DNA of 64,000 nt, taken from the NCBI GenBank assembly GCA_030407315.1, contig JALQPE010001831.1, positions 28,130 through 92,129 on the forward strand. The letters are read 5' to 3'. The notes beneath the pieces are model-generated. The model saw nothing but the letters and a program-made list of their open reading frames with translations. It did no database searches and was not told the origin of the DNA. Position 1 is the first letter of the stretch, and each line of letters opens with the position of its first letter. Source of the stretch: Asparagopsis taxiformis. Lineage: Eukaryota; Rhodophyta; Florideophyceae; Bonnemaisoniales; Bonnemaisoniaceae. Below are positions 8,091-26,216 of this stretch, piece after piece. Both the position numbers and the translations under genes were made by a program.

Positions 8091-8316
8091 GACAGCAAAG
8101 TCATCGTTACGATGACTTTGCTGTAATGATTTGATTTCTTACAGCAAAGTCATCGTAACGATGACTTTGCTGTAAGAAATCAAATCATTACAGCGGCCAC
8201 AATTTTTTACCGGGTAAAAAATTCTTGCTGATTTTTTTACCCGGTAAAATTTTCTCACCACTGTAATCAAACCTTTCCTTACAGCAAAGTCATCGTAACG
8301 ATGACTTTGCTGTAAG
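8091..8316. repeat. Palindrome cluster 2 (three copies)
   Basis: A slightly shortened copy lies at 8091-8126 and full 39-bp copies start at 8138 and 8278. The spacer carries TTTTACCGGGTAAAAAA and TTTTTTTACCCGGTAAAA as an inverted pair. It sits directly downstream of P1. Confidence 0.88.
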
Positions 8317-8915
8317 CATCCCGGGTAAACGGCTTCGGCTGTAAGCGGTTGGGAGTTTCGTCCGTCTCCCACCCTGGGAAGGGTGAGAAGGGAAGTGTGG
8401 AGCCGGGAACATCGTACAACGATGGTTTGGACGACTGTTGACGGCTCTGGGGAGCACTCTGCGTCGTGCAAGCCTGGTTTGCGCTGGCTGCACTACCTGG
8501 TATTGAACGGTTCTGTGCGCAAAGTTTACTCATGAAGGAGTTAGGGTGTTGTGTACCACACCAACCATAGTTACTAACATTTGCAGTGTACTCTAGTGAT
8601 GTAATTATTATTCTAGTTTCTAGCTATACAATGATATTAAGTAAGTCAGATGTGCACAGAGCATGGTCTAAGCCTAGCACGGTAGAGAAAGATGGAAGAA
8701 AGATTGAAGGGTAGGCATGCAGAGGTATGAAGGCAGCAGTATGTGTAGACTATGGCAGTGGTAAGAAAATATTTCATGCACCAAAGGGTGGGTAGAGTGA
8801 CATTAGAGAGGTGGTGTGTAGGGGGAAGGTAGGTGGAGATGATGAAGGAGGACAACAGAAACGAGAGCGAGGGTTGAGACCAACGGCTTACAGATGGAGC
8901 AGTTTACCAGGGATG
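8317..8915. other. Spacer between clusters 2 and 3
   Basis: No gene is supported. Its first 250 bp (GGGAGTTTCGTCC..., GAACATCGTACAACGATGG, CGTCGTGCAAGCC) match in inverted orientation the stretch at about 14270-14420 near cluster 5. The P1 and P2 flanks therefore share a longer duplicated unit than the palindromes alone. Confidence 0.5.
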
Positions 8916-9181
8916 CTTACAGCAAAGTCATCGTTACGATGACTTTGCTGTAAGGAAAGGTTTCATTACAGTGGCCATGATTTCTTTACCCGGTAAAAAA
9001 ATTCCTGGCCGCTGTAATGAAAACGTTTTCTTACAGCAAAGTCATCGTAACGATGACTTTGCTGTCAGGAAACAAAACATTACAGTGGCCATGATTTCTT
9101 TACCCGGTAAAAAAATTCCTGGCCTCTGTAATGAAACGTTTCCTTACAGCAAAGTCATCGTAACGATGGCTTTGCTGTAAG
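8916..9181. repeat. Palindrome cluster 3 (three copies)
   Basis: Copies start at 8916, 9030 and 9143. The second ends in CTGTC instead of CTGTAAG and the third has one arm substitution (GATGGC). Spacers of about 75 bp repeat the motifs TTTACCCGGTAAAAAAATT and GGCC(G/T)CTGTAATG. The cluster lies 165-235 bp upstream of P2, where it could act on that promoter. Confidence 0.88.
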
Positions 9182-9414
9182 GATCCTTGGTAAACTGCCT
9201 GAGCTGTAATTGTCGTACAACGAAAAGTGATGTGGAAGGTTCGGATTGGTCAACCGCTGAATATCATTACCAGGGTGTATACTAATAGGAATATGTCAGA
9301 TCTCTAAGTTTCGCCTATCTTACTCAGCTTACGCAGCAAAACAGCTTGTCGTTCAGATCTTCTTCTCTCTTTCTCAATCTTTCACTCTTCGTTTGTCAAT
9401 CACTCACCAAAGCA

Positions 9415-12400
9415 ATGGCTCAACAATCCCCCAACGCTTTCGACCGCCAGGTGCGCTCTGCCAGCCGCCGTGACAACGATTCTCCCACTCCTTCTCCCTC
9501 TCCTTCTCCCTCTCCTTCTCCTTCTCTGGCCCCCCCTGTCCCCATGGACGTTTGCGAAGCTGCTGCAGCGCTGACCCAGCTCAGCCCAGCACCTAAGCCC
9601 GTCCCCTCCCCCCCTTCCGCTTCCGATCCCGCGGTTGTCCCGACAATCGACGCTGGCGTTCCCGCAACTCCGCTTCCGGCTCAATCTGCCGAAGCGGCGC
9701 CAGCCGTCGAGGGATCTGGTGCTCCTCTGCCCAGCTCGCCTGCTCCGGACATGATCATCGCGTCCGGCAGCGACTTGGCAGAGGATGCGGAGAAGGTCGA
9801 TGATCACAACGCTCGTGACATCGTACCGAACAAGCCTCTCCGCAGCACCAGGCTGGCCTACCCTGGCACAGTGCCCATCCCGGTGGATGTGGACTACGAC
9901 ATAAGTCCGGAGAGCTGCCGAAACATTCCAGTCTTCATTTCCCCCCTGGATGTTTCTCCTCCGGCAGTCGTGTCCAGGGTGGTCAGGCCGCATCGCGTTG
10001 ATGAGTTGAAGAAAACGTTTCTCACTCAGGGATTTTCCGTGATTGCTTCACGCGTGTCCGTCTGCGAGGTGATTGATTCCAATGCAAAAGTACGACTGCA
10101 ATATGTCGATGGATCTCACCGAGTGACCGCGTTGAAGGCCATTCTCGAGTCGGCTGGACCTGCTCCTGCGAAGGACAGTCCAGAGTGGGAGGAGTTTGTC
10201 AAGTCTGACATCTACCGTCGCTTTGGAACTATTCCAGTCGACTTTCTCCTCCCACCGACTCGGCTTGGCCGGGATGTCTTCTGCTCCGAAGAAGTACTCC
10301 CGCTTTCACGGCTGATGAACTTCCACACCCACAATGTCAGCGAGGTAACAGTTGCTGACAATGTGTGCTCTGTGATGGAGTTCATCAATATCCACCGCCT
10401 GGGAAAGAAGAAGATCGAGCCGACCGTTCAATACATAAAAGAACGGAAAGCGCTGAGCTGGATTCGTCCGAGACAGCTCATGCGCTACGTCTCGATCGCG
10501 CGAGGGTTCAAGACCATTGAAAGCCCTGCTTTCAAGTACTGGTCGAGCATCCCGAACAGGCCGGAGTTCGTGCAGTTCTCTTCGACCGAGGATCTGGCTG
10601 GTTGTACGGTGAACTTGTTGTTCAATGGGTCGTTCAGGAGTGCTCCGGATGTGCAGAAGTGTTTCATCCTGGAGATGACGGCGCGCTACACTTGTAGCCG
10701 TCGGTCGGCCGGGCTGAAACCGTACTCGGTTGGTACCATTGGGCAGGAATGGATTGCTGGTTTGTTGGAAATCTTCGGGTACGTGAAGGAGGTGGCCGAG
10801 TACTGGAACGTGTCGGATGTGTTGAGGATGCTGGATGGGTCAATTCCCAGCCGGGGTGACCCGAGCAAGAGCTTCGACATTCGCTCGCGCGTTGTCGAAG
10901 TTCTTGCTCAGATGGTCCCCAAGAAGGGGTGCTGGGCAGACTTCCGTCCCAAGGAAGGCCCCCCCGATGGTTACAGTTACGAAAATATTTTTCCCCGTAA
11001 GAAGTCTGTCTTCGGGAAGGACGCCAGGAAAATGCTCCTGCGCGTCACTGGGTACCGCGACATGCAAATGCGGAAACGCTTTCACGCGATGTACCCAGAC
11101 ATCCCACATGCTGCGCTCCCAGCCACATGTGGTGATGATGCCCCCATCCCTTCCTCTTCCAATTCCTTGCCCATCCCTTCATCCTCCATTCCTTTGCCCC
11201 CACCACCTCAACTGGAATCTTCCAGCAATTCCGAGGTTGCCCCTGTTCCTGTCTCTACCCCTGCCGTGTCTGCATCCTCCCCTGCGGTGACCCCGGTCAA
11301 GCCGACTGCGCGTGGTCCCCAGGATGGCAGCGAACGCTCTGGTCCAGTTTCCCACGCCGGGACTGGTACCCCCAACCGTCCTGTCCAAGCCGCGCAGGAG
11401 CAGGTCTCACCGGCTTCGCAGCCTGAGCCTGCGACTCCGGCTGCCGAGCAGCACCCTGCTGCTCCGGCCCCCGCTGTCGAAGCTTCCCGTTCTGCATCTG
11501 CTAGCAGTTCGGGAAGCTCCAGCGATGACAGCTTCGTCCCTTCACCATCCGGTGGGGTTGGACAGAAGACGGTTGCGAGGATTTCGACGGAGGGCCCTAC
11601 TCCCGAGAATGTGGTCGAGGGCAGCAGTGCGAAGGGCGGTGCAGATCCTGACGAAGATGTCATTGAAGTCAGTGATTCTGCACCGCCCGGAGTGGAAACT
11701 TCTGGGAGGAAAGTGATGCCCAGAAGGAGTACCCGCCTGCAAGCGAGTCGTTCCGGTCGTGGTGGAACGGCGGGTGGTGCTGTGGAGGTCGTCGAGCTGG
11801 AGAGCGCCCCCGAGGATGCGGGTGAAAACTCCATCCTCGGGAAGCGTAACTTGGAAGCCGCTTCTGCGACGCCCGAGCCTTCTACCAAAAAGAGAAGGCT
11901 CGGTGAGACTTCATCAAAGTCGTCGTCAAAGAAATCCAAGTCGGCTTCCCGAGGTCGCTCTCGGGAGCCGGTTCTCCAGTTCGACGACGCCCAGGAGAAT
12001 CCCATTCCCGACAGCATCGTCGATGAGAATGTGGCCGCCGTTCTCCCCAGCGCAATTGCGTCTGGCAGCCGGATGAAGTACTATATGGAAAGTACGACGG
12101 TGGAGACGGTTCGGGCGGAAATGAGGGCGGCAGCATTCCAGGCAGCTGCATCGCCGGGTGCTGAGGATACGGTGGTGGACAGGTACTTTGCGGTGAAGAA
12201 GGCATTGTTGGAAAACTTGGGGGTTATTGTTATGGAAGGCCTGTTGGCATCGTCCACGGCTGGTAATGCGACGCATGAGTTGTTCGGTCACTTCGCTAGG
12301 CAGTTCCCGCTGGTTGAGGAGGTTGAAAAACCCTCCCAGCAGTCTGATTCTAACGATGACGACAGGGAGCCACAGGACGAGCCGCCAGCTTTCGCAAAGC

Positions 12401-13062
12401 CCGGCTTCGATCCTTCGCCGTGGCAGTTCATCCACAACGTGGGTGATGCGAAGGACCGCATCGATGGTGGTCGTGGGCGCCTCTCTCTGCCGCGGCGTGA
12501 GTTGTGCGACAAGTTGGAGGAGGGGAATTTGGAGATGTATAAGAACAAGTTGGTGGCAGAGCTTGCTCTTGGTGTTTGTGCGGAGTTCTTGAAGTTGGGA
12601 ATGGAGGGTGAGGATCCTGTCTTCTTCCCGAAGACAGGATTGCGGCTGCTTCTTACAGCAGATGGGGCTGCGGACCAGGATGGGCACACGGACTTCAAGG
12701 TAGCGACGAATAGTGTTGGAAGTCCTACCACGTCTCCATCATATTTCATGATGTCGAGCGGAGCCGATGGGTTCTCTATAGTAGTTGCCCCTTATAGTCA
12801 TGTATGCCTGGCCAGTCCGGGCGCCGATATGTGGAAGGTTCCCCCTCTCATCTTTTGGGTGCCACCCTATTCCGTATTGGTTGGTCGCGGTGACCTTTAC
12901 CATTACGGGGTCGGCTTCAGCCGAGGAGATCTTCCTGCAGGCGAGAAGTTAGTCTATGGCCTGCCCACGCGCGGCCACATCTACTTGAAGACGGAGAAGG
13001 ACGTCCTCACGGACCACATCCACACCGTCGAATATTACAAGTACGATAGGAGCAATAGATAG
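9415..13062 (+). CDS. P2: ParB-like domain plus C-terminal 2OG/Fe(II) oxygenase-like protein
   Basis: 1215 residues from the Met at 9415, which has G at -3 and G at +4. A frame extension to 9346 would add a hydrophobic 23-mer that looks like translated CT-rich 5' UTR. An SP-repeat and Pro/Ala-rich N-terminus precedes the ParB-like domain (VDGSHR, D232). THNVSEVTVADNVC and YVSIARGF...YWSSIPN follow, then a long Ser/Pro/Ala linker with KKRR-type basic patches. The motif DAQENPIPD...SRMKYY introduces the oxygenase-like domain: HTD (H1091, D1093), YHYG (H1163) and PTRGH (R1186). The D-to-H spacing is 70 residues, as in P1 and P5. It is GC-richer and more diverged than P1 and lies between palindrome clusters 3 and 4. 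Its target is unknown; I expect a nuclear protein. Confidence 0.8.
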   Translation: MAQQSPNAFDRQVRSASRRDNDSPTPSPSPSPSPSPSLAPPVPMDVCEAAAALTQLSPAPKPVPSPPSASDPAVVPTIDAGVPATPLPAQSAEAAPAVEGSGAPLPSSPAPDMIIASGSDLAEDAEKVDDHNARDIVPNKPLRSTRLAYPGTVPIPVDVDYDISPESCRNIPVFISPLDVSPPAVVSRVVRPHRVDELKKTFLTQGFSVIASRVSVCEVIDSNAKVRLQYVDGSHRVTALKAILESAGPAPAKDSPEWEEFVKSDIYRRFGTIPVDFLLPPTRLGRDVFCSEEVLPLSRLMNFHTHNVSEVTVADNVCSVMEFINIHRLGKKKIEPTVQYIKERKALSWIRPRQLMRYVSIARGFKTIESPAFKYWSSIPNRPEFVQFSSTEDLAGCTVNLLFNGSFRSAPDVQKCFILEMTARYTCSRRSAGLKPYSVGTIGQEWIAGLLEIFGYVKEVAEYWNVSDVLRMLDGSIPSRGDPSKSFDIRSRVVEVLAQMVPKKGCWADFRPKEGPPDGYSYENIFPRKKSVFGKDARKMLLRVTGYRDMQMRKRFHAMYPDIPHAALPATCGDDAPIPSSSNSLPIPSSSIPLPPPPQLESSSNSEVAPVPVSTPAVSASSPAVTPVKPTARGPQDGSERSGPVSHAGTGTPNRPVQAAQEQVSPASQPEPATPAAEQHPAAPAPAVEASRSASASSSGSSSDDSFVPSPSGGVGQKTVARISTEGPTPENVVEGSSAKGGADPDEDVIEVSDSAPPGVETSGRKVMPRRSTRLQASRSGRGGTAGGAVEVVELESAPEDAGENSILGKRNLEAASATPEPSTKKRRLGETSSKSSSKKSKSASRGRSREPVLQFDDAQENPIPDSIVDENVAAVLPSAIASGSRMKYYMESTTVETVRAEMRAAAFQAAASPGAEDTVVDRYFAVKKALLENLGVIVMEGLLASSTAGNATHELFGHFARQFPLVEEVEKPSQQSDSNDDDREPQDEPPAFAKPGFDPSPWQFIHNVGDAKDRIDGGRGRLSLPRRELCDKLEEGNLEMYKNKLVAELALGVCAEFLKLGMEGEDPVFFPKTGLRLLLTADGAADQDGHTDFKVATNSVGSPTTSPSYFMMSSGADGFSIVVAPYSHVCLASPGADMWKVPPLIFWVPPYSVLVGRGDLYHYGVGFSRGDLPAGEKLVYGLPTRGHIYLKTEKDVLTDHIHTVEYYKYDRSNR

Positions 13063-13566
13063 CATATCAGAAGTATTAAAACCTATACTACTGTTCCCTG
13101 CTATAAAGTTCTGTCTTTCTCATCTCAACATTGTTACCTTAGCCCATTTTTCAGTTCTCATCTATACATCTGTCCTTCATCTCATAGTTTAGTGCTACTC
13201 AGCAGATTGCTTGCTACTTTTTAATATTAGTCTACAACGTTATATGATTTTACTAGCTAGGCCGTAGGGGGAGACTAGTTTCAACCCTTGACAACGCGCA
13301 GATTTCGACTACGAGAGCCGTCACTGTGATAAATTATTTGTAGAATTTTCGTCTATCTTCCCACCTACACTAGGCTACCTATATATATACAGGGTATAAC
13401 CTGAACAGAGACCACGTGAGGTAAAATACTCCTGAGAGCTGCTCACAGCCGTACAGACCTTTGCTGAGCAATTTACCCGACTTCAAACTTCGCTTCTTAC
13501 CTTTACCAGGATGAGAGAAGGACGAAACTCCCTGCTGCTTACAGCCGAAGCCGTTTACCAGGGTTC
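13063..13566. other. P2 3' flank
   Basis: No gene is supported. The sequence is T-rich just after the P2 stop. The last 60 bp (GAAGGACGAAACTCCCTGCTGC...) are repeated before cluster 5 at about 14394-14447. Confidence 0.4.
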
Positions 13567-13857
13567 CTTACAGCAAAGTCATCGTAACGATGACTTTGCT
13601 GTAAGGAACCGTTTCCTTGCAGTGGCCGAAGAATTTTTTACCGGGTAAAAAATCAGCAAGAAATTTTACCGGGTAAAAAATTGTGGCCGCTGTAATGTTT
13701 TGCTTTCTTACAGCAAAGTCATCGTTACGATGACTTTGCTGTAAGAAAACGTTTCATTACAGCGGCCACAATTTTTTTACCCGGTAAAGAAATCATGGCT
13801 GCTGTAATGATTTGTTTTCTTACAGCAAAGTCATCGTAACGATGACTTTGCTGTCAG
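13567..13857. repeat. Palindrome cluster 4 (three copies)
   Basis: 39-bp copies start at 13567, 13707 and 13819, the last ending CTGTC. The spacers are nearly identical to those of clusters 1 and 5, including the inverted TTTTACCGGG/CCCGGTAAAA pairs. Confidence 0.88.
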
Positions 13858-14340
13858 CACCCCGCCGGAACTGCCAAAGCTGTAAGCAGTCTGGCTTCAC
13901 CCTCTCCCCCATTTCTCTACTCCGCCTTCAGCATCCCAGCCTCTCTGGTGACGACTGACGCCTTTCGTTTCCCCCCTCACGCCCCCTCTCGCAATGAAAT
14001 ACTCGTCTATTACCACGATAGGCTACTCGTACTGCCGCCTTAATTTTCCTCTACACACACCCTCCCATCCGTCTCTTCCGTACTACGATCTTAGGCTATC
14101 CTACCTTACGATTATAGTTGTATAGTGAGTAGCTAGAGTCCTACTTATTGACGACTATAGTGCACCGGAACCGGCGCCGGTTCCCGCCCGGGCGGGTTGA
14201 ATATATATTTTATGCCGTGAGGCACAGGTACCATATGGTCGCTGTGGCTCACGGCACAAGGAGTAGATTTTGCGACCAACAGCCGTCCAAACCATCCTCC
14301 CGTGATGTTCCCTACTTCACACTTCGCTTCTCATGTGAGA
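13858..14340. other. Spacer between clusters 4 and 5
   Basis: No gene is supported. It contains the short perfect palindrome GGAACCGGCGCCGGTTCC near 14166, and its end is the inverted counterpart of the sequence after cluster 2. Confidence 0.4.
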
Positions 14341-14418
14341 CAGCAGGGAGTTTCGTCCTTCTCCCATCTTGGTAAAGGTACCTTTACCAAGAAGGGAGAA
14401 GGACGAAACTCCCTGCTG
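14341..14418. repeat. 78-bp palindrome beside cluster 5
   Basis: Arms 14341-14379 and 14380-14418 pair base for base with a single mismatch and no loop. The arms begin CAGCAGGGAGTTTCGTCC and meet at AAGGTACCTT. One arm alone is repeated at 13510-13540 and, inverted, at about 8350. The full palindrome therefore looks like a fusion of two inverted copies of an element motif. Confidence 0.85.
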
Positions 14419-14447
14419 CTTACAGCTGAAGCCGTTTACCAGGGTTC

Positions 14448-14850
14448 CTTACAGCAAAGTCATCGTTACGATGACTTTGCTGTAAGAAAACAAATCATTA
14501 CAGCAGCCACGATTTCTTTACCGGGTAAAAAAATTGTGGCCGCTGTAATGAAACGTTTTCTTACAGCAAAGTCATCGTAACGATGACTTTGCTGTAAGGA
14601 ACCGTTTCCTTGCAGTGGCCAAAGAATTTTTTACCGGGTAAAAAATCAGCAAGAAATTTTACCGGGTAAAAAATTGTGGCCGCTGTAATGTTTTGCTTTC
14701 TTACAGCAAAGTCATCGTTACGATGACTTTGCTGTAAGAAAACGTTTCATTACAGCGGCCACAATTTTTTTACCCGGTAAAGAAATCATGGCTGCTGTAA
14801 TGATTTGTTTTCTTACAGCAAAGTCATCGTAACGATGACTTTGCTGTCAG
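14448..14850. repeat. Palindrome cluster 5 (four copies)
   Basis: Copies start at 14448, 14560, 14700 and 14812, the last ending CTGTC. The unit composition is the same as in cluster 4, so the two are probably a duplication. It lies about 300 bp beyond the 3' end of P3 and downstream of P2, in the convergent intergenic region. Confidence 0.88.
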
Positions 14851-15154
14851 CATCCCCGGTAAACGGCCCGCACTGTAATGGGGTGACTGCTTCTCCTACA
14901 TCGCTCTGTTACTGGTGTTCTACATGCTGCGTTGCTACACAATTTCGCACTCACATCTTTCTAGTTTCTCTCCCTTTCGTATCCATAGGTATAGCAGTTG
15001 AAAAGTGGATAGTTTGCACTCCAGGCCGCAGATGCCTTCCTGCAGTCATGTCACGATTGTTGTAGTGTAGTCTATAATATCTAGCGCTCTTGGAAGATGA
15101 TGCACAGTCTATTGTCTCTGTCAATGCGTGTTTACTCAAATCTATCAAAGTAGC

Positions 15155-18100
15155 TCAGTTAGCTGGCCAATATTTTCTACCATAGTCAGCAAATATCTCC
15201 TCATCAGCTTCAACGTCTCTGGTCAGAACGACCTTGACAGCATGGGGATTCTTGATATTCGAAGCAAAGTCCGGTTTGTCTATGGCATCGCCTTGTCGAA
15301 ACTCGGCTGACTGTGTTCGACTCACCTCGGTCGCTTTCTCCGTTCCGTCAATGACCCGACAATCATTGAGGTAGCTGGTACAATTATAGACCGCTGGAAC
15401 GAGCCAGACCTTCCGAACAGGTGCACCCCTCCCTATGTACGTGGTTTCCAATTCCATGTTGTAGTCCTGGAACCTCTGTCCTGTGCACCCAAATCCTTCC
15501 GGGCCGTACATCACTGATCTCTGCGGTTCCGAGTCTCGAATCTTCGCATAGAAAATCGTCCCGTTGTACCAGCCAATGACCGTCCCCTTCTTCAGTTTCT
15601 TCGCCGCGAATACGCCAAACCCACCACCTCTTACCTCCGATTGCGAAACATAGACACCGTAGAATGCGGCATCAGCAGCCAGAATCGCGTCCGGGTCTAT
15701 GCTCCAAAACGAGTGCATGTCCTCGGCCGGCCACTGGTCCATAGGCACCCCGCTCAATCTGTGAAGCATAGAACCGTCCTTCTTCATTGACGCAACGAAC
15801 ACAAGCAGATGGTTCGGCAATGCTGTCACAGCAGGTAAACCTTCTGGTGCATCTGAGATGTGCTTCTGACGAAGCCTTGGAGCTTTTCCTGTGACCGGTA
15901 CCGACTCGTCCCCAAGAATACTCTCCACCTCACGCTGCAAGATCCCCCCATATCGCCCGGCTTTCACCTCACTGACGAAAGCATGCAGTATCCACTCCTG
16001 CGATGCATCGTGGCACCTTTTTTCCTTCTCACACCCAATGAACCGACGATACGTACCATCCCTCAACGTCATACACGCTATGGCTGTGCTGTATGTTCCC
16101 GAGAAGAAATCCATCACGATATCGTTCTGCTTCGAAAATCGTTCCAGAAGCTCACGAAGAGTGGTCAACGCCTTCTGCTCATGGCGCAGTCGGTTGTTCT
16201 GCCCATCGTATTGAGCTTCACCAGCCGACAACCTCGGAACGTTGTCAATCGCGTTGGTGAACCCAGGGTGCCTCGATATGTCCGGATTGTGCAACCTGTA
16301 ATCCACCATATCGTATGCAGCCATACCCTTCCCCCGCTTATACGCATGGATAACGAAATCGTGCATATTATGCAGTGTGCACGTTTTCGTCGATGGATTG
16401 GACGTAAAGCTGTGTGGTCGGCGAGATAGCACGACTGGAACACTGTCCACAATCATCTTGCCAGGCTCGGCATTTCTGATTGCATCCATCCATGCCACGA
16501 GTTGGCGCACGCTGGAATAGATTAGAGCATGACCGCCAGGCCGAAGAACTCGAACTATTTCACACGCAACACTCGCCAACTCTTCCGGCTCCAGAATATC
16601 GTACTCCGAGTTTTCTCTGCCGCCTTCCCGCCTCGTGTTGAATGGAGGATCAGTGAGCACAAGCTGAACACTGTCCTCCAACACGCCATCTTCCAGGAAA
16701 CTAATTTTGTCCTCCACCTCTTTGGCTACATCAGTGGCGTCACAATTCACAGTGTGAATGTAACGCCCCATCACAGCTTCCAGCTTGGTGACATATTCCG
16801 GCTTGGATTCCTTTCCGACGTCAACGAGCGGTGCTTCTGTAGGCGATACAGTGTCAACCTCCATAGCGTCATCCTCGGCCGCACCTTCTCTTGTTGCTGT
16901 TTCGCTAGCAACCGCCGCATTATCGTCCTCTCCACCACCGCGCTCCAGCCTAGCCTTCTTCCTCTGTGGCTCCAGACTATCCTCTTCTATATCCTCGCTG
17001 CCATTGTTTGGCACTGCTGCGGATATTTCCATCTGCGCAGGTGCACCTTCAAGGATGCCAGGCTCGGGCGTATCCTCAAGACTGTGCAACTCATCCATGG
17101 TCAGAGGAAGCTTTCGTTGCTCTCGGGTTCGCAATAACCAAGCCTTCAGCCTCCTCTGACCATCCAGGGCATGAGACGTGTTCAACTTGGCTCGCATGAA
17201 CGAGTTCAATCCGAACTTGTCAGGAGTGTCGAAAAGCAAGGCTCGAAGTCTCTGCATCAGCTGACCACGCTCGGCGAACACATTCACCTCAGTGACACAT
17301 TGGCGTATCGACAGCAGGAAGGCGCTTGTCAATGATCGCAGCCTTGCATCCACAGCCACTGGAAGGTCGGCACAGAACCCGTTTTCACTGTCTACAGTTT
17401 TCGGGACAATGGTCAGGTTTTTCCGATGCTCCTCGACCGCGCAGCCATCAGACCGATTCGGGAGTGACCTGAAGCAAAGGCTCGCAGGATCGAATACCAT
17501 GAACGGCCAGCACATCGATTCAACATCCTCATACCCCAACACTCTTGCCCCGGTATCCCACGCAGCTAACACACGGTCGACAACAAATCCAAGCTGGTTG
17601 GCTTGCGCACTGGATGTTGCAATTCCAACCATTCCACCACCACCAATGGCCCCGGATGTGGCTCTGGCCCGCCTAGATGGCGCACTGCCCATCTCCTTAC
17701 TGCGAATAGCCAAGATACACTGGCACATCATAACCATCAGCCTCCTGAACCGCTTCTGGCTAGCCTGCAAAGAATCTTGCATGTCGGATGTAGCGCCGTC
17801 TAGAAAGTACCTGCTCGAAAGCAGTTCGCGGTTCAGTGGAGAGGACAATTCTCCGCGGGGTGTCTTGCCAAACATTTCGACGGCACGAGAACTAGTCACC
17901 CCCACCTGTTTCGGAAACTCAACCATCCTCGGAGAATCACCCATCTCTGCATTGAGTCCCCATGCATGACAAAACATTTGCCACAGACGCAAATCAATCG
18001 CACTCGAATCTTCTGCTCGGTGATACGGCCGAAGCACAGCCAGGATAGACATGCATGAGCTGTACTGCGGTTTACCACTCAGGCTTGAAGCAATTTGGCC

Positions 18101-18631
18101 GCTTGGATCGCAGGACTTGATCCAGCCCAACACATCGGCCATCCTCACAGACGAAATATGAGCGTACTTGTCCTTTCCTTTTTGGACCCAGTACTCGTCT
18201 CTGAGATCAACGGCGATCATCAGATACTCAACAAACATCATGCGCCTTTGCAGGCCTGCAATGTCGTTGGATGTCGTCGCTCTCACACGGTCCAGCACAA
18301 CAGCAGTACTGCTGTTGGTGTCCGCCACGATAGACTCTTCTCGCATAGGAATCGTAACGCCAGGAGGAAAGACGCCCTTCTCCATTCCACGTACAATTGC
18401 CATGCAGCGGTGCGCTCCATCCAATATCTCCAGAACGCCTTCTCGAAACCTGCCAGTCACGGGATGAGCTGTGTCATAACCGCTGTTGCGAATGCTCTCC
18501 ATGAGCGCTTCCACATGACTTGCATCAACATCGCGAATCGATACGAATTTGCTGACTTGATTGGGGTCGATGAACACCCATCCGTCGTGCTTTTCACCGT
18601 GATTGTGGAACGTTCCTTCCATGGCGAACAA
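15155..18631 (-). CDS. P3: ParB-like domain, beta-class DNA methyltransferase and SET domain in one protein
   Basis: 1158 residues. An N-terminal ParB-like domain carries EILDGAHR (D71-R75). A helical middle and an acidic linker with KKARL (about 500-620) follow. A DNA methyltransferase then shows LVLTDPPFN (D661-F664, motif IV) ahead of VMDFFSGTYSTA (D841, motif I, AdoMet site). This order defines the beta class; DPPF favours N6-adenine over N4-cytosine, whose usual motif is SPPY. The C-terminus is a SET domain: RGGGFGVFAAKKLKKGTVIG near 1000-1020, YLNDC in place of the usual NHSC, and EEIFADYG with Y1150. There is no post-SET cysteine cluster. ParB-methyltransferase fusions are common in bacteria and phages, so that part may be horizontally acquired. 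Predicted role: sequence-directed DNA methylation coupled to lysine methylation, in the nucleus. Transcribed toward P2. Confidence 0.85.
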   Translation of the reverse strand: MFAMEGTFHNHGEKHDGWVFIDPNQVSKFVSIRDVDASHVEALMESIRNSGYDTAHPVTGRFREGVLEILDGAHRCMAIVRGMEKGVFPPGVTIPMREESIVADTNSSTAVVLDRVRATTSNDIAGLQRRMMFVEYLMIAVDLRDEYWVQKGKDKYAHISSVRMADVLGWIKSCDPSGQIASSLSGKPQYSSCMSILAVLRPYHRAEDSSAIDLRLWQMFCHAWGLNAEMGDSPRMVEFPKQVGVTSSRAVEMFGKTPRGELSSPLNRELLSSRYFLDGATSDMQDSLQASQKRFRRLMVMMCQCILAIRSKEMGSAPSRRARATSGAIGGGGMVGIATSSAQANQLGFVVDRVLAAWDTGARVLGYEDVESMCWPFMVFDPASLCFRSLPNRSDGCAVEEHRKNLTIVPKTVDSENGFCADLPVAVDARLRSLTSAFLLSIRQCVTEVNVFAERGQLMQRLRALLFDTPDKFGLNSFMRAKLNTSHALDGQRRLKAWLLRTREQRKLPLTMDELHSLEDTPEPGILEGAPAQMEISAAVPNNGSEDIEEDSLEPQRKKARLERGGGEDDNAAVASETATREGAAEDDAMEVDTVSPTEAPLVDVGKESKPEYVTKLEAVMGRYIHTVNCDATDVAKEVEDKISFLEDGVLEDSVQLVLTDPPFNTRREGGRENSEYDILEPEELASVACEIVRVLRPGGHALIYSSVRQLVAWMDAIRNAEPGKMIVDSVPVVLSRRPHSFTSNPSTKTCTLHNMHDFVIHAYKRGKGMAAYDMVDYRLHNPDISRHPGFTNAIDNVPRLSAGEAQYDGQNNRLRHEQKALTTLRELLERFSKQNDIVMDFFSGTYSTAIACMTLRDGTYRRFIGCEKEKRCHDASQEWILHAFVSEVKAGRYGGILQREVESILGDESVPVTGKAPRLRQKHISDAPEGLPAVTALPNHLLVFVASMKKDGSMLHRLSGVPMDQWPAEDMHSFWSIDPDAILAADAAFYGVYVSQSEVRGGGFGVFAAKKLKKGTVIGWYNGTIFYAKIRDSEPQRSVMYGPEGFGCTGQRFQDYNMELETTYIGRGAPVRKVWLVPAVYNCTSYLNDCRVIDGTEKATEVSRTQSAEFRQGDAIDKPDFASNIKNPHAVKVVLTRDVEADEEIFADYGRKYWPAN

Positions 18632-19135
18632 AGGTAGAGTTTTTAAGAAAGGGATAGTTGGTTGCTGCTTGACCAGGGTGGCGCAAAGCAGAAGTTGGTT
18701 GTTTAAAACAAAGTGTCAGCGAGTGGTAGCACTTCGGTGGCTGTTTCCTTTCCACCCCTGTCCGAACCTTTACAAGATAACTACATCGACTGTTAGCTCA
18801 ATAATCAATGTAATACTAAAGTAATACTCAAAATATTTTTCCATGCAATTTATTGGGCCCCGTAACATCTCTAAGCGTATCTTTGTAGTCCAATCGTATG
18901 CATCCGACATTCACTTCTAGAACGATTATTCACATCAAATTTTATGCTGCAATCAGTTCATGGCAGACATCATCCACACTGACGTGTCAATTTTGTCAAT
19001 TGTCCATTCTATTTCTACACCACCTAAACATCTCTTCTGGACCTTTCCAATCCTCCTAGTATATACTACTCTTTAGCAGAAGGTAACGGTTAGGCTTTCA
19101 CTAATACAACAATTCTATCCCATAGCTATCCCAAC
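18632..19135. promoter_or_regulatory. Divergent intergenic region between P3 and the 453-residue gene
   Basis: 504 bp separate two start codons on opposite strands, so both promoters should lie here. TATATA at 19060-19065 is about 70 bp before the start at 19136 and is a plausible TATA box. No palindrome cluster occurs here. Confidence 0.45.
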
Positions 19136-20497
19136 ATGCTTCCTCTCGCTCCAAACGACGTTATAGAAGTTCAATGGGAACTTCGGCCGTTTGGGAGGAA
19201 ACGAAAAATTGTGTGGTGGTCTGCAATCGTCAAGGAAATTACTCAGGTCAAGACCGAAACAGACCCATTCCTCCATGCATTGCTCGAATACAAAGCTGAA
19301 TATGGTTTCGACTCTACCCTTTCTCAAGTCAAGATTTCAGATCGTAACGAGCTCGTCGACAAGGATTCCGGAAGGGTTCTCCCGTGGCGAAGTGGTGAGC
19401 TTCGCAGTATGGACTCACCTGCATCCCCAGCAGAGAGAGACCCGGACTACGGCATTGACCACACTCGCCACCGCCACCGCGGCATCCTTCAAGATTGCAC
19501 TGCGGATCAAATGAAGAAGACCATAGCAGAAATGCTGGCAAGATTGGAAAAGCTGGAGTCAGCTGCCAAACATCCTCTTCCCCCTCCATTCGATTCCAAC
19601 AGCTCCATGACCTCCTCTGCTCTGACTGTATGTAGCATTCTGTTTCAGAAGCTTGGTGTGTACACGGACAAGCCCCTCTCCCTCCGGATGACAAAATCCG
19701 AGCACTCCAGGGGAATGCGACAAACATCGCAAGAAGAAATCAGAGTACAGGCTGACTGCTCCCTTGCTCAATTCCGCACTATTGCCATTCAATGCAAGGC
19801 GAAAGAGAATCGTGATGTTCTCTTCCTGCCGTCCTTTGAGGACATCACCTTTCCCTCTGGAAATGAGTCGGATCTTTCCATCATTTTCCCCACCTTTCAG
19901 GCACTATGTGACTCCATAGGTACCTCGCAACACGGGTTCCAGAAAATATTGGTGAAGAGCAGGGCGGAACGCGATGGAGGCAGCTCATCGATTGTCCGAA
20001 TTTTAGGAAATCTAGTCGACGTTGACTGCTCTCATGATGCTCCTTCTTCCGCATTTCTCGTCGGCTCATCTGCTTACGTCCTGTCCAGCCCAGACCAACG
20101 TATGACAGTTCTTTGCAGAGACTCCTACGAGTTTGACCATGTCAACAATACATTTTTACATCCCCTATGTCTTAGCCAACTATCACAGTCTAGCATCGTG
20201 GACTCTTTCCACCTACGTGATAAGGCTACTGTTACTTATGGAGCAACGTTTTCGTTACTGTGGAGACGTATTCAGCGCCGAGCTTGTTACAGCACTTTCC
20301 AGCCTCTATCAACCGCAGAGACGTTTGGTACACTACATCTACGCTTACCTTGCTGTATTTTCAGTGGTACTACTATATGCCAGGAGCTTGAAGACATTGG
20401 CTATGAGGCTATCTCTCGTCTTGGCTTCAATGCGGATTCAGACACTACCCACCCACCCTCTCCTCCACCTGCCACCTGCAGTCCGGAGCAAAAATGA
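19136..20497 (+). CDS. Accessory protein with a possible Tudor-like N-terminus and a coiled coil
   Basis: 453 residues; not confidently recognised. The first 80 residues (VIEVQWELRPFGRKRKIVWW..., then LEYKAEYGFD and VLPWR) have the beta-rich, aromatic look of Tudor/SH3-fold chromatin readers; this is an impression, not a match. Residues of about 120-145 (MKKTIAEMLARLEKLES) should form a coiled coil. The rest is Ser/Leu-rich without a motif I know. Its position inside E1, divergent from P3, makes a transposon accessory role plausible, for instance TnpA-like binding of subterminal repeats. No paralogue is visible in E2 or E3, whose corresponding parts are outside the window. Confidence 0.6.
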   Translation: MLPLAPNDVIEVQWELRPFGRKRKIVWWSAIVKEITQVKTETDPFLHALLEYKAEYGFDSTLSQVKISDRNELVDKDSGRVLPWRSGELRSMDSPASPAERDPDYGIDHTRHRHRGILQDCTADQMKKTIAEMLARLEKLESAAKHPLPPPFDSNSSMTSSALTVCSILFQKLGVYTDKPLSLRMTKSEHSRGMRQTSQEEIRVQADCSLAQFRTIAIQCKAKENRDVLFLPSFEDITFPSGNESDLSIIFPTFQALCDSIGTSQHGFQKILVKSRAERDGGSSSIVRILGNLVDVDCSHDAPSSAFLVGSSAYVLSSPDQRMTVLCRDSYEFDHVNNTFLHPLCLSQLSQSSIVDSFHLRDKATVTYGATFSLLWRRIQRRACYSTFQPLSTAETFGTLHLRLPCCIFSGTTICQELEDIGYEAISRLGFNADSDTTHPPSPPPATCSPEQK

Positions 20498-20772
20498 TAA
20501 AGCACACCTATCCGTAGTTATCCTGTTCCTGGGTATTCCATTCTAGAGCTCCTGTGGCCATCAATTTCTAGTAAAGACGGATACCCTCGCCCCTTCCTAC
20601 TTCGACTATTCCACTACCTGTCTCTGCGCTGTTCCTTCGACTTGACACTATCGTCTGACTGGTTTCCTGATGTCTCGCACCTATCTACTTCCATCTATTA
20701 CAAAATTCACCTCAACAGAAATTTTATTTCTTCATTCTTCGTCTACTACACCGAAACTGGTTTCATCCGATA
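20498..20772. other. Convergent gap
   Basis: A 275-bp gap between two convergent stop codons. It presumably holds both 3' untranslated regions; no other signal was seen. Confidence 0.4.
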
Positions 20773-22353
20773 CTACTCCCCTTCATTCTCGATTTCATCA
20801 TCGACGAATACCTTCACATATTCTGCATCTCCTCCGTCCTCTTCCATAGACCTGAAGCTCTCCTCCAGCACTGATTCCCCCCCATCGTCTACGTTCAGTT
20901 CTTCATATCTATCACGCGATATAGTCAAAACCTCCTCATTCATGAACCGACTACTCACCCGCTCCCCGGGAAGAAGCAGTTTCACTGCTTCATTGATTTC
21001 CCGGATTTGCGCTCCTTCCACCTCTGTTCCACTTTGAAATTTCAAAATCGTTCGGAACCCGTATGCAAGTATGTAGATGAATTGCAAGGAGTATTCTGAA
21101 CGTCGCAGGAACATGTTCTTATCAGAACATTGCGTGTAGGCGACTGCAAAGTTCAGTGCAACCTCTACTAAATTGATCCTCCTAGTCAAAAACCTCTTGT
21201 CCGGTTCTCCAATTATTTGAACTTCGTACTCGACTTTGAATAGCATTTCTTTTCGCACTGCAATGAAGTCGCGAAGAATCTTCATATTCTTGTCATCCAT
21301 TGCTGCACGCTCCGCTGCATTCATTTTCCTCTGCGCCGAGTACAGACTTGGAACTGACTCAATGTCCAGCCCACCGTCGTGCAAATGATGCTCCATTCGG
21401 ACTGAACCTTGAAACCCACTGTATAGAACGAATCCAAGATCTCGGATGAACCGGTTTCGCACATGATCTCTGGACTTGTTCATAAACCCGGTCACTGCTG
21501 TGAGTGCCGATTTCGTCACAGTGATGCCTACCTCCTTTCTGTGCAACGGCCCATTGTCTCCAACCTTTCTTCGCTTCTGCTTTCGAGCGGCCCCATCACT
21601 TCCCTCGGACGTCCCATGCATTCCATCCATGCGAGCAGAGTCCGTTCCGCGAATTGTCTCCTCAATGGTCCCGGTAGTCACATACCCCCGCGCCCTCCAC
21701 CGTTCGATACCTTCCGACGTTCCATTGGAGCTGGAACGGTCTCCTCCCTCTCTGAAAGAATTGTTTTGACACGTATTCTTGATTAAAGAGGTCACAACTT
21801 GGCAGCGCAATTCAATGTGGTTCCGGCCGGCAAGCGTCCTATTGAACACATCCTTTCGCTCATTGCTCTGCCTGGCGAACATCAGCGTATTGATTAGCTG
21901 GCATCCGTTGAAATGCCTATCCCTCTTATCCACCATTGCCTTCGTGTACGTTGGAACAACAGCACACAGCACAGCACACACCATTTCGAACGTGAACGAT
22001 TTCTCCGCATCCTGCGCAATGCGGAGACGTTCCCTGTCCTTCTCGGAGGCGATCTTCTTCGGATGTCCTTGTCCCTGGCTCAGAAGCCCATCGACGATGC
22101 TCTTGACCTCCTGCATATCGGTGTTTAGCATGGAGACAGTCTTGGCGACATTTCCGAGAGTCTCGCGTAATTGAATGGTGCTCTTCTCGACGGCATCCAT
22201 TTTATCACTCAGGGCTTTCAACTCTGCAGTGATGTTCGAAAAGCCCTCACGCGTTATTTCGGAAAATGCGGCGATGCTTACGGAGGTTTCGGGATTCATC
22301 TTGACCTTGCAATTGGAGTTTGCTAAAAGGAGAATTGCTTTGAAGGATGTCAC
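20773..22353 (-). CDS. Accessory coiled-coil protein, function unknown
   Basis: 526 residues, or 508 if the Met at about 22299 is used; that start gives a cleaner N-terminus (MNPETSVSIAAF). Residues of about 25-95 are a strong heptad-type coiled coil (ITAELKALSDKMDAVEKS...). A basic patch follows (RKQKRRKVG, a likely nuclear localisation signal). The C-terminal half is a charged alpha/beta region ending in an acidic tail (VDDEIENEGE). I do not recognise the family. It is the last gene before E1's terminal array, the place where a subterminal-repeat-binding or structural factor might be expected, but that is inference from position only. Confidence 0.6.
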   Translation of the reverse strand: MTSFKAILLLANSNCKVKMNPETSVSIAAFSEITREGFSNITAELKALSDKMDAVEKSTIQLRETLGNVAKTVSMLNTDMQEVKSIVDGLLSQGQGHPKKIASEKDRERLRIAQDAEKSFTFEMVCAVLCAVVPTYTKAMVDKRDRHFNGCQLINTLMFARQSNERKDVFNRTLAGRNHIELRCQVVTSLIKNTCQNNSFREGGDRSSSNGTSEGIERWRARGYVTTGTIEETIRGTDSARMDGMHGTSEGSDGAARKQKRRKVGDNGPLHRKEVGITVTKSALTAVTGFMNKSRDHVRNRFIRDLGFVLYSGFQGSVRMEHHLHDGGLDIESVPSLYSAQRKMNAAERAAMDDKNMKILRDFIAVRKEMLFKVEYEVQIIGEPDKRFLTRRINLVEVALNFAVAYTQCSDKNMFLRRSEYSLQFIYILAYGFRTILKFQSGTEVEGAQIREINEAVKLLLPGERVSSRFMNEEVLTISRDRYEELNVDDGGESVLEESFRSMEEDGGDAEYVKVFVDDEIENEGE

Positions 22354-22832
22354 GCTTAGTACAGCAGTGTTGTAGCAAATATCATTTCAGTGGATGCATC
22401 CATCCTGGTCTACTCTACATAATAATAATGCTTCCCAGTGCTCCGTAACGGTTATTTTTCATAATTTAGTGGTGGATGGTGCGTATTCTTTCCTTTGCCA
22501 CCACCCACGTCCTGTGCATACCACACCTCGCTACCAGACTGACGTCTCCTACTAGACACTTTCAATGCAAAGATAGATAGGTATAATTTGAAATGCTAAA
22601 CTCAACATATTATAGCTACTATGTACATTCTCTCCTTACGGTGAGACAAACCAGATATGTTCTGTTCTCCCAATCTTCCTTTCTCCAACGTCCTATTCAG
22701 CATCTAGCTTCCCCGCACCCAACTATCTGTAAAGCACCATCACAATTAATATAGTCGTATACCACACACCATTCCAATATTTACCTTCACACCAACACTA
22801 TGCTCCATATTTCCTCTAAGTCCACTCCACCA
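22354..22832. other. AT-rich spacer before the E1 terminal array
   Basis: 480 bp without a supported gene. It should contain the promoter of the 526-residue gene. No TATA box was clear. Confidence 0.35.
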
Positions 22833-23201
22833 GACAGTGTTGTCAAACAATGCACGGTACTACCCGCAGACAATACAATTTGCTATCTACACTACTGTCT
22901 ACAGATTTCCCCAGACAGTGCAGTAATACAGTACAATGTATTGTCTCAGACAGTAAAATGTACTGTCTGCACATACTGTCTGGCGGCAACACTTCCGGAC
23001 AGTAAAATTTACTGTTCTGGACAGTAAATTTTACTGTTTTTGGTACTGTCCAGATTTCGTGCCAGTTTACTGCTGCAGCAGTATTCTGAAATTTCCAGAC
23101 AGTAAATTTTACTGTCTCCGCGCACTGTCTTGGCCAGACAGTAATTTTTACTGTCTCAGACAGTAAATTTACTGTCTGTTTTCATTCTCAACACCGTAGT
23201 G
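22833..23201 (+). repeat. E1 3' subterminal palindrome array and TAGTG terminus
   Basis: About a dozen variants of CAGACAGTAAA(A)TTTTACTGTCTG are packed head to head, with degenerate copies on the left. The array ends CAACACCGTAGTG at 23201. The same 13-bp terminus ends E2 at 33963. Dense short direct and inverted subterminal repeats are typical of CACTA elements and bind the element's own TnpA-type protein. Confidence 0.85.
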
Positions 23202-26200
23202 TGGCTGAACTTGGCGATACGAATGATGAACCCATCCGCACCAGCAGCCATCATGAAATATGATGGCGAGTTGAGAGGAAGTTCCAGTTCCCTCACGGAC
23301 GGGAACATCGGTATGCATAAGTTGCTCCTGACTACCTTCTGCGGTCAAAATCAGACGAAGACCCGTTTCTGGAAAGACCACCGCTTCTTCTCTTCCAAAC
23401 CCGAGCTTCAGGTTCTCCGCACAAATCGCCTTACCTAGCTCCAGAATCAGCTTGTTCCTGTACTGCCGCGCGCTTTCTTGCTCAAGGTCATCGCAGATGC
23501 TTTTCCGGTCCGTCTTGAATACACCAGTGCTGTCTTTCGGTCGAAGTGGTTTCCACGGGTTCTTCTGACTTGTACTTGAGCCACTTGTAGTACCTTGGAA
23601 TGTGCTGGCCATCTGTGTGAATAACTCGTGCGTAGCTGCTCCCACTGTAGTAGAAGAGAAAATGTCTTGCAACACCACGTAACCAAGCTCGTCGATCATT
23701 CTTCTCTGGTAGCTGAAGTATTGTTGGCTTTCACAAGAACCGAGGGGACATACCAAAGTAGAGTAGCCTGCAGCTGCTTCCATTATCTCCGTCCGGATTG
23801 TATCAATGTCTTCTTCTGTGATATAATACTTCATTCTCGAGTTGGAAGGAACGCATAAAGGCAGCTTCTCAGGTATGTCCTCTGCGAATGTGCGGTCTGG
23901 AAGGGAGTTTTCTTGCTCGTCAGTGAAGAGTGGTGCTTCTTCTCCAGTCGTTCGTTCTCTTGCATTGACTCTACTCTTCTTTTCCCGGGGAGGCCCAATC
24001 TCAATGTTGTCATCCGGCGTATTGGGCTCAGAAAACTTCGCGCTAGTATCTTCCCTTCTTCGCTTCTTATCCAACCTGGACTCGTTTTCATCGCCGCTTC
24101 CACCAGAACTCCTGCTTCTTCCCGAATTCTCCTTGTCCACTTCGGCCGGGCTAGTGCTGTAAGTTTCTGGTGTCCTGATTCGAAGTTTCAATATCACAGA
24201 GCGGTTCTGCGCATCTCCAGCTTGTTGTCCAGGCGTGTCTATGTCCATGCGACCACTATTGTCCAAGTTGATATCCAGACTTTGCGTATCGCCGCTTTGT
24301 TTCCTTCCCTGAGGAAGATCTTCTCTGACAATCCTTCCCGGCGAATTATCCCTGGCACGACTTTCCCGCTCTGCCCTTGAAGCTGAAAGACGTTCCTGTT
24401 CTTTTTGGAGAACAGCAAGACGTTCTGCTTCCCTCTTCTCAGCTGCTGCAAGACGCGTGGCAGGACGTTCCTGTCCTCCCTCTTTTGCTGCGGCAGGACG
24501 GTCTTCTGCTTCTTTCGGGGTGCTCAGAGGTGCCTCTTCTATTGCTTTCGTCGCGACAGCAGGAATCACTTCTTCAGCCACCACATTTGGAGTAATTTCC
24601 TGTTCTTCCTCCACAACAGCAGAAACTTCCTGCTCTGCTTGGGCTTCGGCAGATACTCCTTCTTCTGCTTGAACAGGACCAGAAGTTTCCACAGTTTCCT
24701 TCTCTGTAGAATTATTTCCCTGTTCTGCGGCAGTAGGTGCTTCTTCGTCTTCTGCTTTGGCGCCATCAACAAGTGCTTTTTCTATTTCTCCGGGGGTCAT
24801 GCGATTCCGTTCCCTCTCCTCCTCCGCTTTCGTCTCCTGCATTGCCTTTGTCCCGGTAGCATATTCCAGTTTGTCGTAAAAACTGTTTGTAAACATCCCG
24901 TTCTTGGTTCTCAGACTGCTACTGTCTACCACGTCGTCATGAAAGTCGACAAGGACGAATACAATGCGCTCTCCAATGCGATGATCATTATCCCCGACCT
25001 CCTTCGCGTTTTCTGCTGCCAAATCCGTTCGCACGAATTCCTCCATCGTTGCAGAGTTCAACCACTTGCGGACGACCTCTGCCATATCATAGATGGCCAA
25101 CAGAGCCAGTAGCCAAGTGCGCATCGTGAACGGACTTCCGCTTCCGATATTTCTGACAAGTCCTCTCTTCCTCCTCATCCTTGTCCACGACGCTGTCATC
25201 TCGAGCACAAACCACTGGAACCACTCCTTATCGCGCGTCCCGCGTCCGTCCGTGCCATTGCGGAATATTGCGTTATTGACAAGATCGAGCACGCACCCGT
25301 ACATATCGGCAGAGTCAATTCGAGAAAAGTCCGGATCTCTTCCCTCGGTTCTTGCATCCTCGATTTCTCTGTTCCTATCCAAAGCATTGTAAACGCTAGG
25401 GATAGAGCTCCAGTACACGAAAGCAACGCTGTCTGTGCGATTGAACCCCTTCGCAATGTTGATGTACTGCCTATACGAGTTCTCCGAACGGTTCCTGTCG
25501 GACGGCAGAATATAGCTCACTTCTTTCAGAATAGGAATAAGCCGGACAACAGGAAGATCCATCTGGTTGGAAAACCTGAGAAACTCTATGACCGCACACA
25601 CATTGTCGGCAATGCTCACAGAAGCGACATCGTGAGTTTGTATATTGGCTTCGAGAGACAGTTTCAGAACCTCCAGCGCATCGAAAATTAGACGCCCGTT
25701 CGGCGCAATCAACTGTTGTACCCAAACCAATTCCAAGGAATCCCTGTTCTTTCCTGAGTACTTCTCCAGGCATAGTTGCAGAGCAGCTATGCGATGAGAG
25801 CCATCGATGCAGTAAAACTCGTCTCCTTCGTTATCTTCCATTTTGCAGACTGTAATCATAGTTCCAGTGGTAGAGAAACCTCTATCCATGAAAATGCTGG
25901 CCAGTTCGTTTACACGACCCGGTCGCACCAAACGGGAGGTCACTGTCGGAAATTTCACTTTGCGAGGATCAACTTGCACTTTAGAAGAGCTGTACTGAGC
26001 AATAGTGATGCTTTTCTCTTCAGCAGAAGGAGAATTGCTCTTCTCCGCTGTAGTATTCATGATACTATTGTCTCCCATTGTAATCCCTGCAATCTCAGTT
26101 CGTTCAATCGGTTCTCTGTTCAAATGTTGTGTAGACGATGAAATCCACAATTGTGGTACCTCCGAGTGCGCTTCCCGTCTCTCAGCTTCCTCTCTTATAC

Positions 26201-26216
26201 TGTCCGGACAAGACAT
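23202..26216 (-). pseudogene. P1b: broken copy of P1
   Basis: Nearly identical to P1 over about 960 codons (for example RKRTT to RERTT, SGSSAS to SGSSTS), including the intact IDGSHR motif and the HTD motif. A 2-bp deletion near 23278-23283 shifts the frame shortly after HTD. The gene is cut at 23202, 3' of the codons for KFSH, by insertion of E1 with TGG as the presumed target duplication. The distal His and Arg of the oxygenase-like domain are lost on this side. The downstream ORF tail is partly E1 terminal repeat read in frame. Confidence 0.9.

Follow-up and report, generated by a model that had tools for sequence, protein, structure and literature searches.

A giant CACTA-ended transposon of the red alga Asparagopsis taxiformis carries a single gene joining a DNA methylase and a SET domain to a putative ParB/Srx-like N-terminus

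The Sola1-1 transposon of Ectocarpus encodes a protein that combines a ParB-like part with a DNA methyltransferase, and passages of the paper that describes it propose that such ParB-methylase proteins bind and modify the elements that encode them (PMC12477816). Both the occurrence of such proteins in transposons of algae and the notion of self-marking are thus already published. On transposons of green and red algae the same source refers to Iyer 2011 and Petroll 2025, and it mentions giant EnSpm elements from red algae (PMC12477816). In the VANDAL transposons of Arabidopsis, the VANC factor is addressed to family-specific motifs arrayed in the transposons' own noncoding DNA (PMC5735166). Fungal transposons, Plavaka and EnSpm among them, are described as encoding TET/JBP dioxygenases (PMC12730594), and giant Plavaka repeats with intron-poor genes are described in the protist Amoebidium (PMC11244446). 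Here we examine a 64,000-nucleotide stretch of Asparagopsis taxiformis DNA (contig JALQPE010001831.1, positions 28,130 to 92,129; 'the window'), in which a 26.4-kb transposon, termed element 1, carries a gene, MTSET, for a ParB-like, DNA methylase and SET protein. We describe the protein, the element and its palindrome arrays, discuss how they might work together, and return finally to the known systems.

MTSET lies on the reverse strand at 15155..18631. Its frame is uninterrupted over 1158 codons counted from a TTG; the start is likely the ATG at codon 4, where P0001, a database protein of 1155 amino acids that is 99.7% identical, begins. From N- to C-terminus the polypeptide contains ILDGAHR (residues 69–75), TDPPFN (660–665), DFFSGTYS (841–848) and EIFADYG (1145–1151), all present in the order claimed by an earlier, sequence-only reading of this DNA. 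The N-terminal region with the LDGAHR motif (residues ~18–107; 18311..18580, reverse strand) matches PHROG families at E-values (E) of 1.7e-5 and 0.003. The methylase domain (residues 655–878, TDPPFN then DFFSGT; 15998..16669, reverse strand) matches Pfam N6_N4_Mtase, PF01555, at E 2.3e-16 (60.9 bits against a cut-off of 26.7), and the SET domain (residues 1004–1151; 15179..15622, reverse strand) matches PF00856 at E 4.2e-6 (27.6 bits against 22.4). When the 7992 database proteins with the most words in common with MTSET were scored, three were kept: P0001; P0002, 43% identical over 99% of the length; and P0003, 31% identical over the methylase-SET half only, and without a ParB part. A search with the methylase piece kept none of 1125 candidates. 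The three-part order is not a product of chance, being preserved in P0002 even though the two proteins are only 43% identical. At the level of sequence we regard MTSET as a confirmed single open reading frame (ORF), in which the beta-class methylase and the SET domain are assigned with confidence and the ParB/Srx-like N-terminus with weak support.

In beta-class methylases, motif IV (DPPF/Y) precedes motif I (FxGT). In MTSET motif IV occupies residues 661–664 and motif I residues 843–846, an order kept in all four families that we aligned. Compared with solved structures, a profile of these four families matched DpnA/M1.HpyAVI (E 3.7e-12), CcrM (1.3e-7) and MboIIA (1.4e-7) and, more weakly, the bdelloid N4C enzyme (0.002). 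NCBIfam matches, all far under cut-off, were best to an unspecified DNA methyltransferase (2.5e-9), followed by CcrM and another adenine-specific family. Since the nearest solved structures and the next NCBIfam matches are adenine enzymes, the likely target is N6 of adenine; the earlier description of a bacterial-type beta-class methylase agrees with these matches. A Foldseek search with the predicted MTSET model gave nothing at E 0.001; its seven best weak matches (E 0.5–1.9) were all DNA methylases, with no ParB or SET among them.

A phylogeny of the methylase domain was built with 14 rows, one of them a phage row without the DPP motif. It includes two further sampled genes, at L037:344-3661 and L038:1590-4418, that encode a ParB-like part and a DNA methylase with a Cys-rich C-terminus, which looks like a zinc finger; neither matched SET, and no profile matched the Cys-rich part. 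Four SET-type rows group together (91/92), as do the two zinc-finger-type rows (97/94). A weakly supported fork (56/96) unites these six with a phage-type ParB-methylase, and 42% of bootstrap trees contain a branch that separates the transposon rows from all others. With that fork at 56/96, the tree leaves unsettled where and when the methylase was captured. Among phage records, four matched MTSET, all of them only in the methylase part and with coverage short of 80%. Plasmid records also matched this part only: 1 when the whole protein was the query, and 137 when the methylase piece was. Two of 134 candidate stretches from viral contigs held a relative.

The SET domain, too, was found where the sequence-only reading had placed it, and its profile is closer to eukaryotic histone methyltransferases than to an algal-virus SET. 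The four-family SET profile matched EZH2-type chains best among solved structures (E 3.3e-5), then KMT2D and SETD8 (3e-4), and more weakly the Legionella effector LegAS4 (0.0076) and an algal-virus SET (0.16). The NCBIfam match of this part was again LegAS4 (3.3e-4, far under cut-off). The C-terminal tyrosine, canonically in DYG, is present in all four families, as DYG in three and as HYG in L020, a locus of the related family described below.

The N-terminus had been called ParB-like from its ILDGAHR. A DGxHR-type box, which we take to be a feature of the ParB/Srx family, is present in 8/8 aligned ParB-like segments; profile support was weak. Over residues 33–81 MTSET matches, at E 0.003, the PHROG called ParB-like partition protein, the best match to any ParB-named profile, and residues 26–107 match PHROG 4272, of unknown function, at 1.7e-5. 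Pfam profiles gave no ParB match in MTSET or in the related ParB-like proteins; they equally miss ParB in a phage-type protein (L036) where PHROGs gives E 1e-11. Compared with one another by hhalign, as profiles of two to four rows, three groups of ParB-like segments gave probabilities of 85%, 30% and 32%. We consider the N-terminus ParB/Srx-like, then, as a weakly supported assignment.

Carriage of the gene by a transposon, also claimed earlier, is borne out by matching terminal repeats around it. A 14-bp terminal inverted repeat, CACTACGGTGTTGA, ends at window position 23201 (23188..23201, reverse strand) and recurs, inverted, 26.4 kb away at the other end of the element, upstream of the window at C1708:24891 (L009:6762); the part of element 1 inside the window is 1..23201. 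Next to the right end, at 22947..23178, are subterminal CAGACAGTA/TACTGTCTG motifs and palindromes, distinct from the internal sites described below. Single element ends with other flanks occur elsewhere, a right end in L013 and a transposase-side end in L014. CACTA (EnSpm/CMC) transposons are expected to make target-site duplications of 2–5 bp; the flanks of element 1 show none of at least 2 bp. Between the repeats are a putative transposase (TpA), two ORFs named P2OG_A and P2OG_B, MTSET, and two accessory ORFs. On this sequence evidence the element is a giant CACTA-ended DNA transposon, and MTSET is cargo within its terminal repeats. A 33-base marker inside MTSET occurs, with at most two mismatches, at 425 places (235 + 190) in the 141.5-Mb genome, a number of marker copies rather than of full-length elements.

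Between the genes of element 1, self-comparison of the window revealed repeated near-palindromic units. They resolve into a perfect 39-bp palindrome, CTTACAGCAAAGTCATCGT(T/A)ACGATGACTTTGCTGTAAG, repeated in five arrays: 3364..3882 (5 cores, between TpA and P2OG_A), 8089..8316 and 8916..9181 (3 cores each, between P2OG_A and P2OG_B), and 13562..13854 (3 cores) and 14443..14847 (4 cores), both between P2OG_B and MTSET and the latter 0.3 kb downstream of MTSET. The window contains 23 such sites, 22 of them perfect in a 33-bp core: 18 in element 1, and 5 in a truncated copy of it, where they duplicate one of the element 1 arrays. Half-sites (at most one mismatch) number 48, two beyond those of the 23 sites. 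None of the 23 falls inside any of the 14 listed ORFs, although the coding fraction of 1–23201 is 0.72. In the 18 element 1 units, selected by core match with at most three mismatches, conservation averages 99.1% up to 19 bases from the centre, then drops to 66%, 64% and 58% in successive outer zones. The 33-bp core occurs 8,325 times perfectly in the genome and 9,713 times with at most two mismatches; a reversed control occurs 0 times. Divided by the 425 markers, the perfect cores come to 19.6 per marker, which fits 18–20 per element. Because 425 near-identical copies would by themselves yield 8,325 cores, it is the comparison within the element, and not the genome count, that is evidence of constraint. 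A smaller palindrome, TACC(C/G)GGTA, occurs at 24 places between 3436 and 41958 of the window, all outside listed ORFs, 21 of them in arrays and 3 in gaps among P2OG_C, P2OG_D and TpB, and is common to two element types.

A PF01555 scan, in which 150 matches were scored of 2605 candidates, gave 78 with one score and span, which we took as the MTSET subfamily; their frames are open for at least 1100 amino acids in 52 and shorter in 26. Membership was confirmed for C3 through L031, which carries a 100% identical stretch of 396 amino acids. A second, abundant methylase-SET family in the same genome was sampled at 20 loci (L011–L030), picked across scores and frame lengths from 150 genome SET matches. 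Its members lack the ParB part and are 22–25% identical to MTSET. The idea that these SET matches are copies of MTSET was rejected for the 20 sampled loci, none of which matched 15155–18631 at the DNA level. A solo ParB-like gene adjoins the methylase-SET gene in 14 of them, divergently upstream in 12 and downstream in 2; the one in L020 is a 697-codon frame with VIDGLHR. Plavaka transposase genes are near members of this family (for example ~5 kb away on C178, C310, C357 and C364, and ~9 kb on C436), and on the contig of the window a Plavaka transposase (E 1.7e-24) occurs in L010 together with part of a methylase-SET gene. The abundant family also has a palindrome, unlike that of the window, with perfect 21-base arms (43–45 bp). 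It is present in 9 of the 20 loci, in 7 between the solo ParB-like and methylase-SET genes, and its half-sites are found in 15, ~1 kb upstream of the methylase-SET gene; its 35-base core occurs 123 times in the genome. The 39-bp site itself, searched as its core with at most three mismatches, occurs in none of L011–L030, L037 and L038.

Selection was gauged for this abundant gene in 18 of 21 loci (L010–L030). The three left aside are L010 and L011, for their shortness, and L014, for want of the exact C-terminal string that served as a filter; the filter biases the sample slightly toward conservation. Counting distinct changes, and with 7 to 36 synonymous events per part, the per-site nonsynonymous/synonymous ratios were 0.34 (N-terminus), 0.53 (methylase), 0.46 (between) and 0.36 (SET); a count over all pairs gave 0.44 overall and 0.16 for SET. 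The ratios suggest, from a small sample, that the abundant gene is under purifying selection.

Among the other genes of element 1 are P2OG_A (4578..7838, forward strand; IDGSHR) and P2OG_B (9346..13062, forward strand; VDGSHR), each ParB-like at the N-terminus and with an HTD...YH...R pattern at the C-terminus. The window holds four such diverged ORFs (P2OG_C and P2OG_D are at 34241-37114 and 38140-41664), 29–47% identical in parts and spread over two element types. All four keep the ParB-like N-terminus and an invariant C-terminal HxD...H...R, the residue pattern of 2-oxoglutarate Fe(II) dioxygenases, and this suggests that the C-terminal domain is such a dioxygenase. The Pfam, PHROG and NCBIfam libraries gave no identifying match for these ORFs. 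A search of the protein database with their alignment returned one 100% identical copy only, among 7997 scored. Foldseek with the P2OG_A model found nothing at E 0.001, and its best weak matches were unrelated proteins. An initial label, TET/JBP-like, was dropped, no profile supporting it. The ORFs are possible erasers, paired with the MTSET writer.

How might these parts act together? We propose tentatively, with confidence approaching but not reaching an even balance, that MTSET is an accessory chromatin writer of its giant CACTA-ended transposon, addressed to the element's own palindromes through its ParB-like part. A dimeric ParB/Srx-like module, located in MTSET, in the P2OG proteins or, as in the Plavaka-associated family, on a separate gene, would bind the palindromes of the element that encodes it. 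At the bound palindromes the methylase would mark DNA, with adenine N6 the most likely position; the SET domain would methylate lysine on histones or on another chromatin protein. The joint DNA and lysine mark could tell the element from host DNA, and could keep it expressible and mobile despite host silencing or else regulate its copies; the putative dioxygenase partners might remove or prevent a competing mark. Self-addressing seems to us the best reading because the layout resembles that of VANC, and because ParB-like domains occur both fused and separate. Extended to giant eukaryotic transposons generally, the proposal becomes one of modular self-addressing, in which ParB/Srx-like readers of perfect palindromes, each specific to a family, are fused or paired as separate genes with interchangeable effectors, a writer and a sister eraser among them; this extension we consider conceivable but somewhat unlikely. 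It is with similar reserve that we name the effectors: a DNA adenine methylase with SET, a methylase with a zinc finger, and a putative dioxygenase, with one polypeptide writing both marks on its own element.

A number of observations weigh against self-addressing by MTSET. The ParB-like assignment fares poorly against solved structures. A profile of eight segments (the four P2OG ORFs, L037, L038, MTSET and P0002) was compared with PDB up to E 10 and returned ten rows, none significant by itself. The best was Noc (0.033), followed by 1vk1 (0.049), a MarR protein (0.095), SerK (three rows of one protein, 0.21–0.22) and SbnI (0.43), the last three rows being BURRH, twice, and NF-kappa-B. We take 1vk1, SerK and SbnI to be members of the ParB/Srx superfamily. 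After a solo ParB had been included in the profile and the zinc-finger-type pair taken out, Noc was lost and only MarR (0.3) and sulfiredoxin (0.67) remained; the two zinc-finger-type rows by themselves found SerK at E 1. The structure predictions are poor, with a mean predicted local distance difference test score (pLDDT) of 37.7 for MTSET (3-row alignment) and 36.7 for P2OG_A (4 rows), and the dioxygenase profile matched nothing in PDB. The canonical SET motif NHS reads ND(C/S/P) in all four families, the Asn kept and the His replaced, so histone activity cannot be assumed. The palindromes, too, call for caution. Their core conservation is partly by construction, since units were chosen by core match; two arrays share 99% identity across 302 bp, which makes the units non-independent and raises the flank values, not the contrast; and genome-wide perfection largely reflects recent copies. 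Gene conversion within arrays could also have caused the likeness of the units. The stretch from MTSET to the element's right end is free of 39-bp sites. L037 and L038, the other ParB-methylase genes, have no palindrome that we could find, and in the abundant family the half-site was not found in 5 of the 20 sampled loci, nor the solo ParB-like gene in 6, where the ~10 kb fetched may cut the gene off.

The rival that survives best, doubtful though we consider it, is that the arrays are unrelated to ParB-like domains, and are transposase sites, RNA hairpin terminators, or replication or recombination sequences. Perfect inverted repeats could form hairpins, and no palindrome was seen alongside the ParB-methylase genes L037 and L038. 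The placement of the sites argues otherwise: they are absent from the element ends, the nearest lying 6.6 and 8.4 kb inside, while the ends carry different CAGACAGTA palindromes; they occur upstream as well as downstream of genes; and in the related family another palindrome lies between divergent ParB-like and methylase-SET genes in the 7 of 20 loci already mentioned.

It is unlikely, in our view, that MTSET instead silences, methylating DNA and histones on its own or competing elements so as to limit copy number or exclude rivals. EZH2, a repressive enzyme, is among the best SET matches, and self-limitation would be useful to an element with so many near-identical copies. Yet the high copy number and the many intact frames point to recent success rather than shut-off, and the putative dioxygenase partners, if dioxygenases they are, would better fit the removal of marks. 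Equally improbable, we think, is that the methylase and SET domains act on host genes or proteins while the arrays merely regulate transcription of the element's genes. The sites occur close to gene ends and, in one instance, to a gene start, and the related family, with its single site between divergent genes, is operator-like; five arrays totalling 18 sites per element, however, exceed what an operator needs. That MTSET is captured cargo with no function for the element fits the truncated third of its subfamily (26/78), and is very unlikely given that the methylase-SET fusion is kept across families 43% to 22% identical, with methylase motifs in 4/4, the SET tyrosine in 4/4 and nonsynonymous/synonymous ratios below 1. 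An assembly or ORF artefact has next to no probability, many open copies being on separate contigs and the 396-amino-acid stretch in L031 being identical.

The remaining features of the window can be dealt with briefly. TpA (1..3243, forward strand, cut by the window start) is a large ORF taken as the transposase, its role being assigned by inference. A 99.8% identical DNA copy lies within 23202–30794, where the full ORF is at 27552–31355; this copy matched no Pfam family, and comparison of TpA with the Plavaka transposase of L010 gave a probability of 2.7%. An initial label for TpA, KDZ-like, was set aside, as the CACTA ends speak against it. The two accessory ORFs, at 19136..20497 (forward) and 20773..22353 (reverse), have relatives, 38% and 38.5% identical respectively, near a methylase-SET gene in one of the 20 sampled loci (L014:6807-9999 holds both). 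Beyond element 1 is its truncated, inverted second copy (23202..33963, reverse strand), with a 5-core array at 26912–27431, a terminal repeat at 33950–33963, and subterminal CAGACAGTA motifs and palindromes near its end, at 33772–33938. A 35-bp tandem repeat of 12.8 copies (33156–33603) adjoins the transposase-side end. Another element type has a long near-perfect palindrome upstream of its ORF TpB, at 46802–46879, and at 61150–61226 in a second copy; the 38-base core of this palindrome occurs at 198 genome places (at most two mismatches). A mariner/Tc-like transposase (DDE_3, E 5.8e-16) is at 50697–51878, and this element seems to interrupt the second TpB copy, because its region partly follows a TpB segment (63575–64000). 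An ORF at 58130–59164 matches a retroviral-type aspartyl protease (E 0.0022, under the curated cut-off).

If self-addressing is correct, the element, whose likely address exists in thousands of perfect copies, offers a direct test of how selfish DNA controls its own chromatin, and of whether a eukaryote can have N6-adenine methylation that is written on purpose. MTSET would be a single chain able to methylate both DNA and histones, and the element would be a second system, besides VANC, of sequence-addressed transposon self-marking. Open-access PMC, a scope outside which Iyer 2011 and Petroll 2025 fall, yielded no account of the SET fusion, of the putative dioxygenase partner or of the palindrome arrays.

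Among known systems, Sola1-1 is similar to MTSET in that a ParB-like part and an N6A/N4C methylase are joined in one protein of ~1100 amino acids, carried by a giant algal DNA transposon; it belongs to another superfamily, the phrase 'set domain' does not appear in the text of the paper available to us, and the passages describing Sola1-1 mention no palindrome arrays (PMC12477816). The phage-type L036 protein, from an IMG/VR contig, likewise has a ParB-like N-terminus and an N6_N4 methylase, but it is only 403 amino acids long, has no SET match, and groups weakly with the transposon enzymes. HarbingerS transposons with a SET histone methyltransferase, named in a title that PMC12730594 cites, likewise encode a SET domain, and are of the Harbinger type, unlike the CACTA-ended element. 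The fungal TET/JBP transposons are also CACTA-like elements with an accessory DNA-modification enzyme; as described in the parts consulted, their enzymes are erasers, whereas MTSET is a putative writer and the P2OG ORFs are only putative dioxygenases (PMC12730594). VANC, finally, shares with the MTSET element the arraying of family-specific motifs in noncoding parts, and differs in causing loss of DNA methylation and in having a motif, as reported in the relevant passages, of 9 bases in one orientation, against a 39-bp palindrome here (PMC5735166). The resemblance is one of working alike, through another protein family, and we claim no homology.

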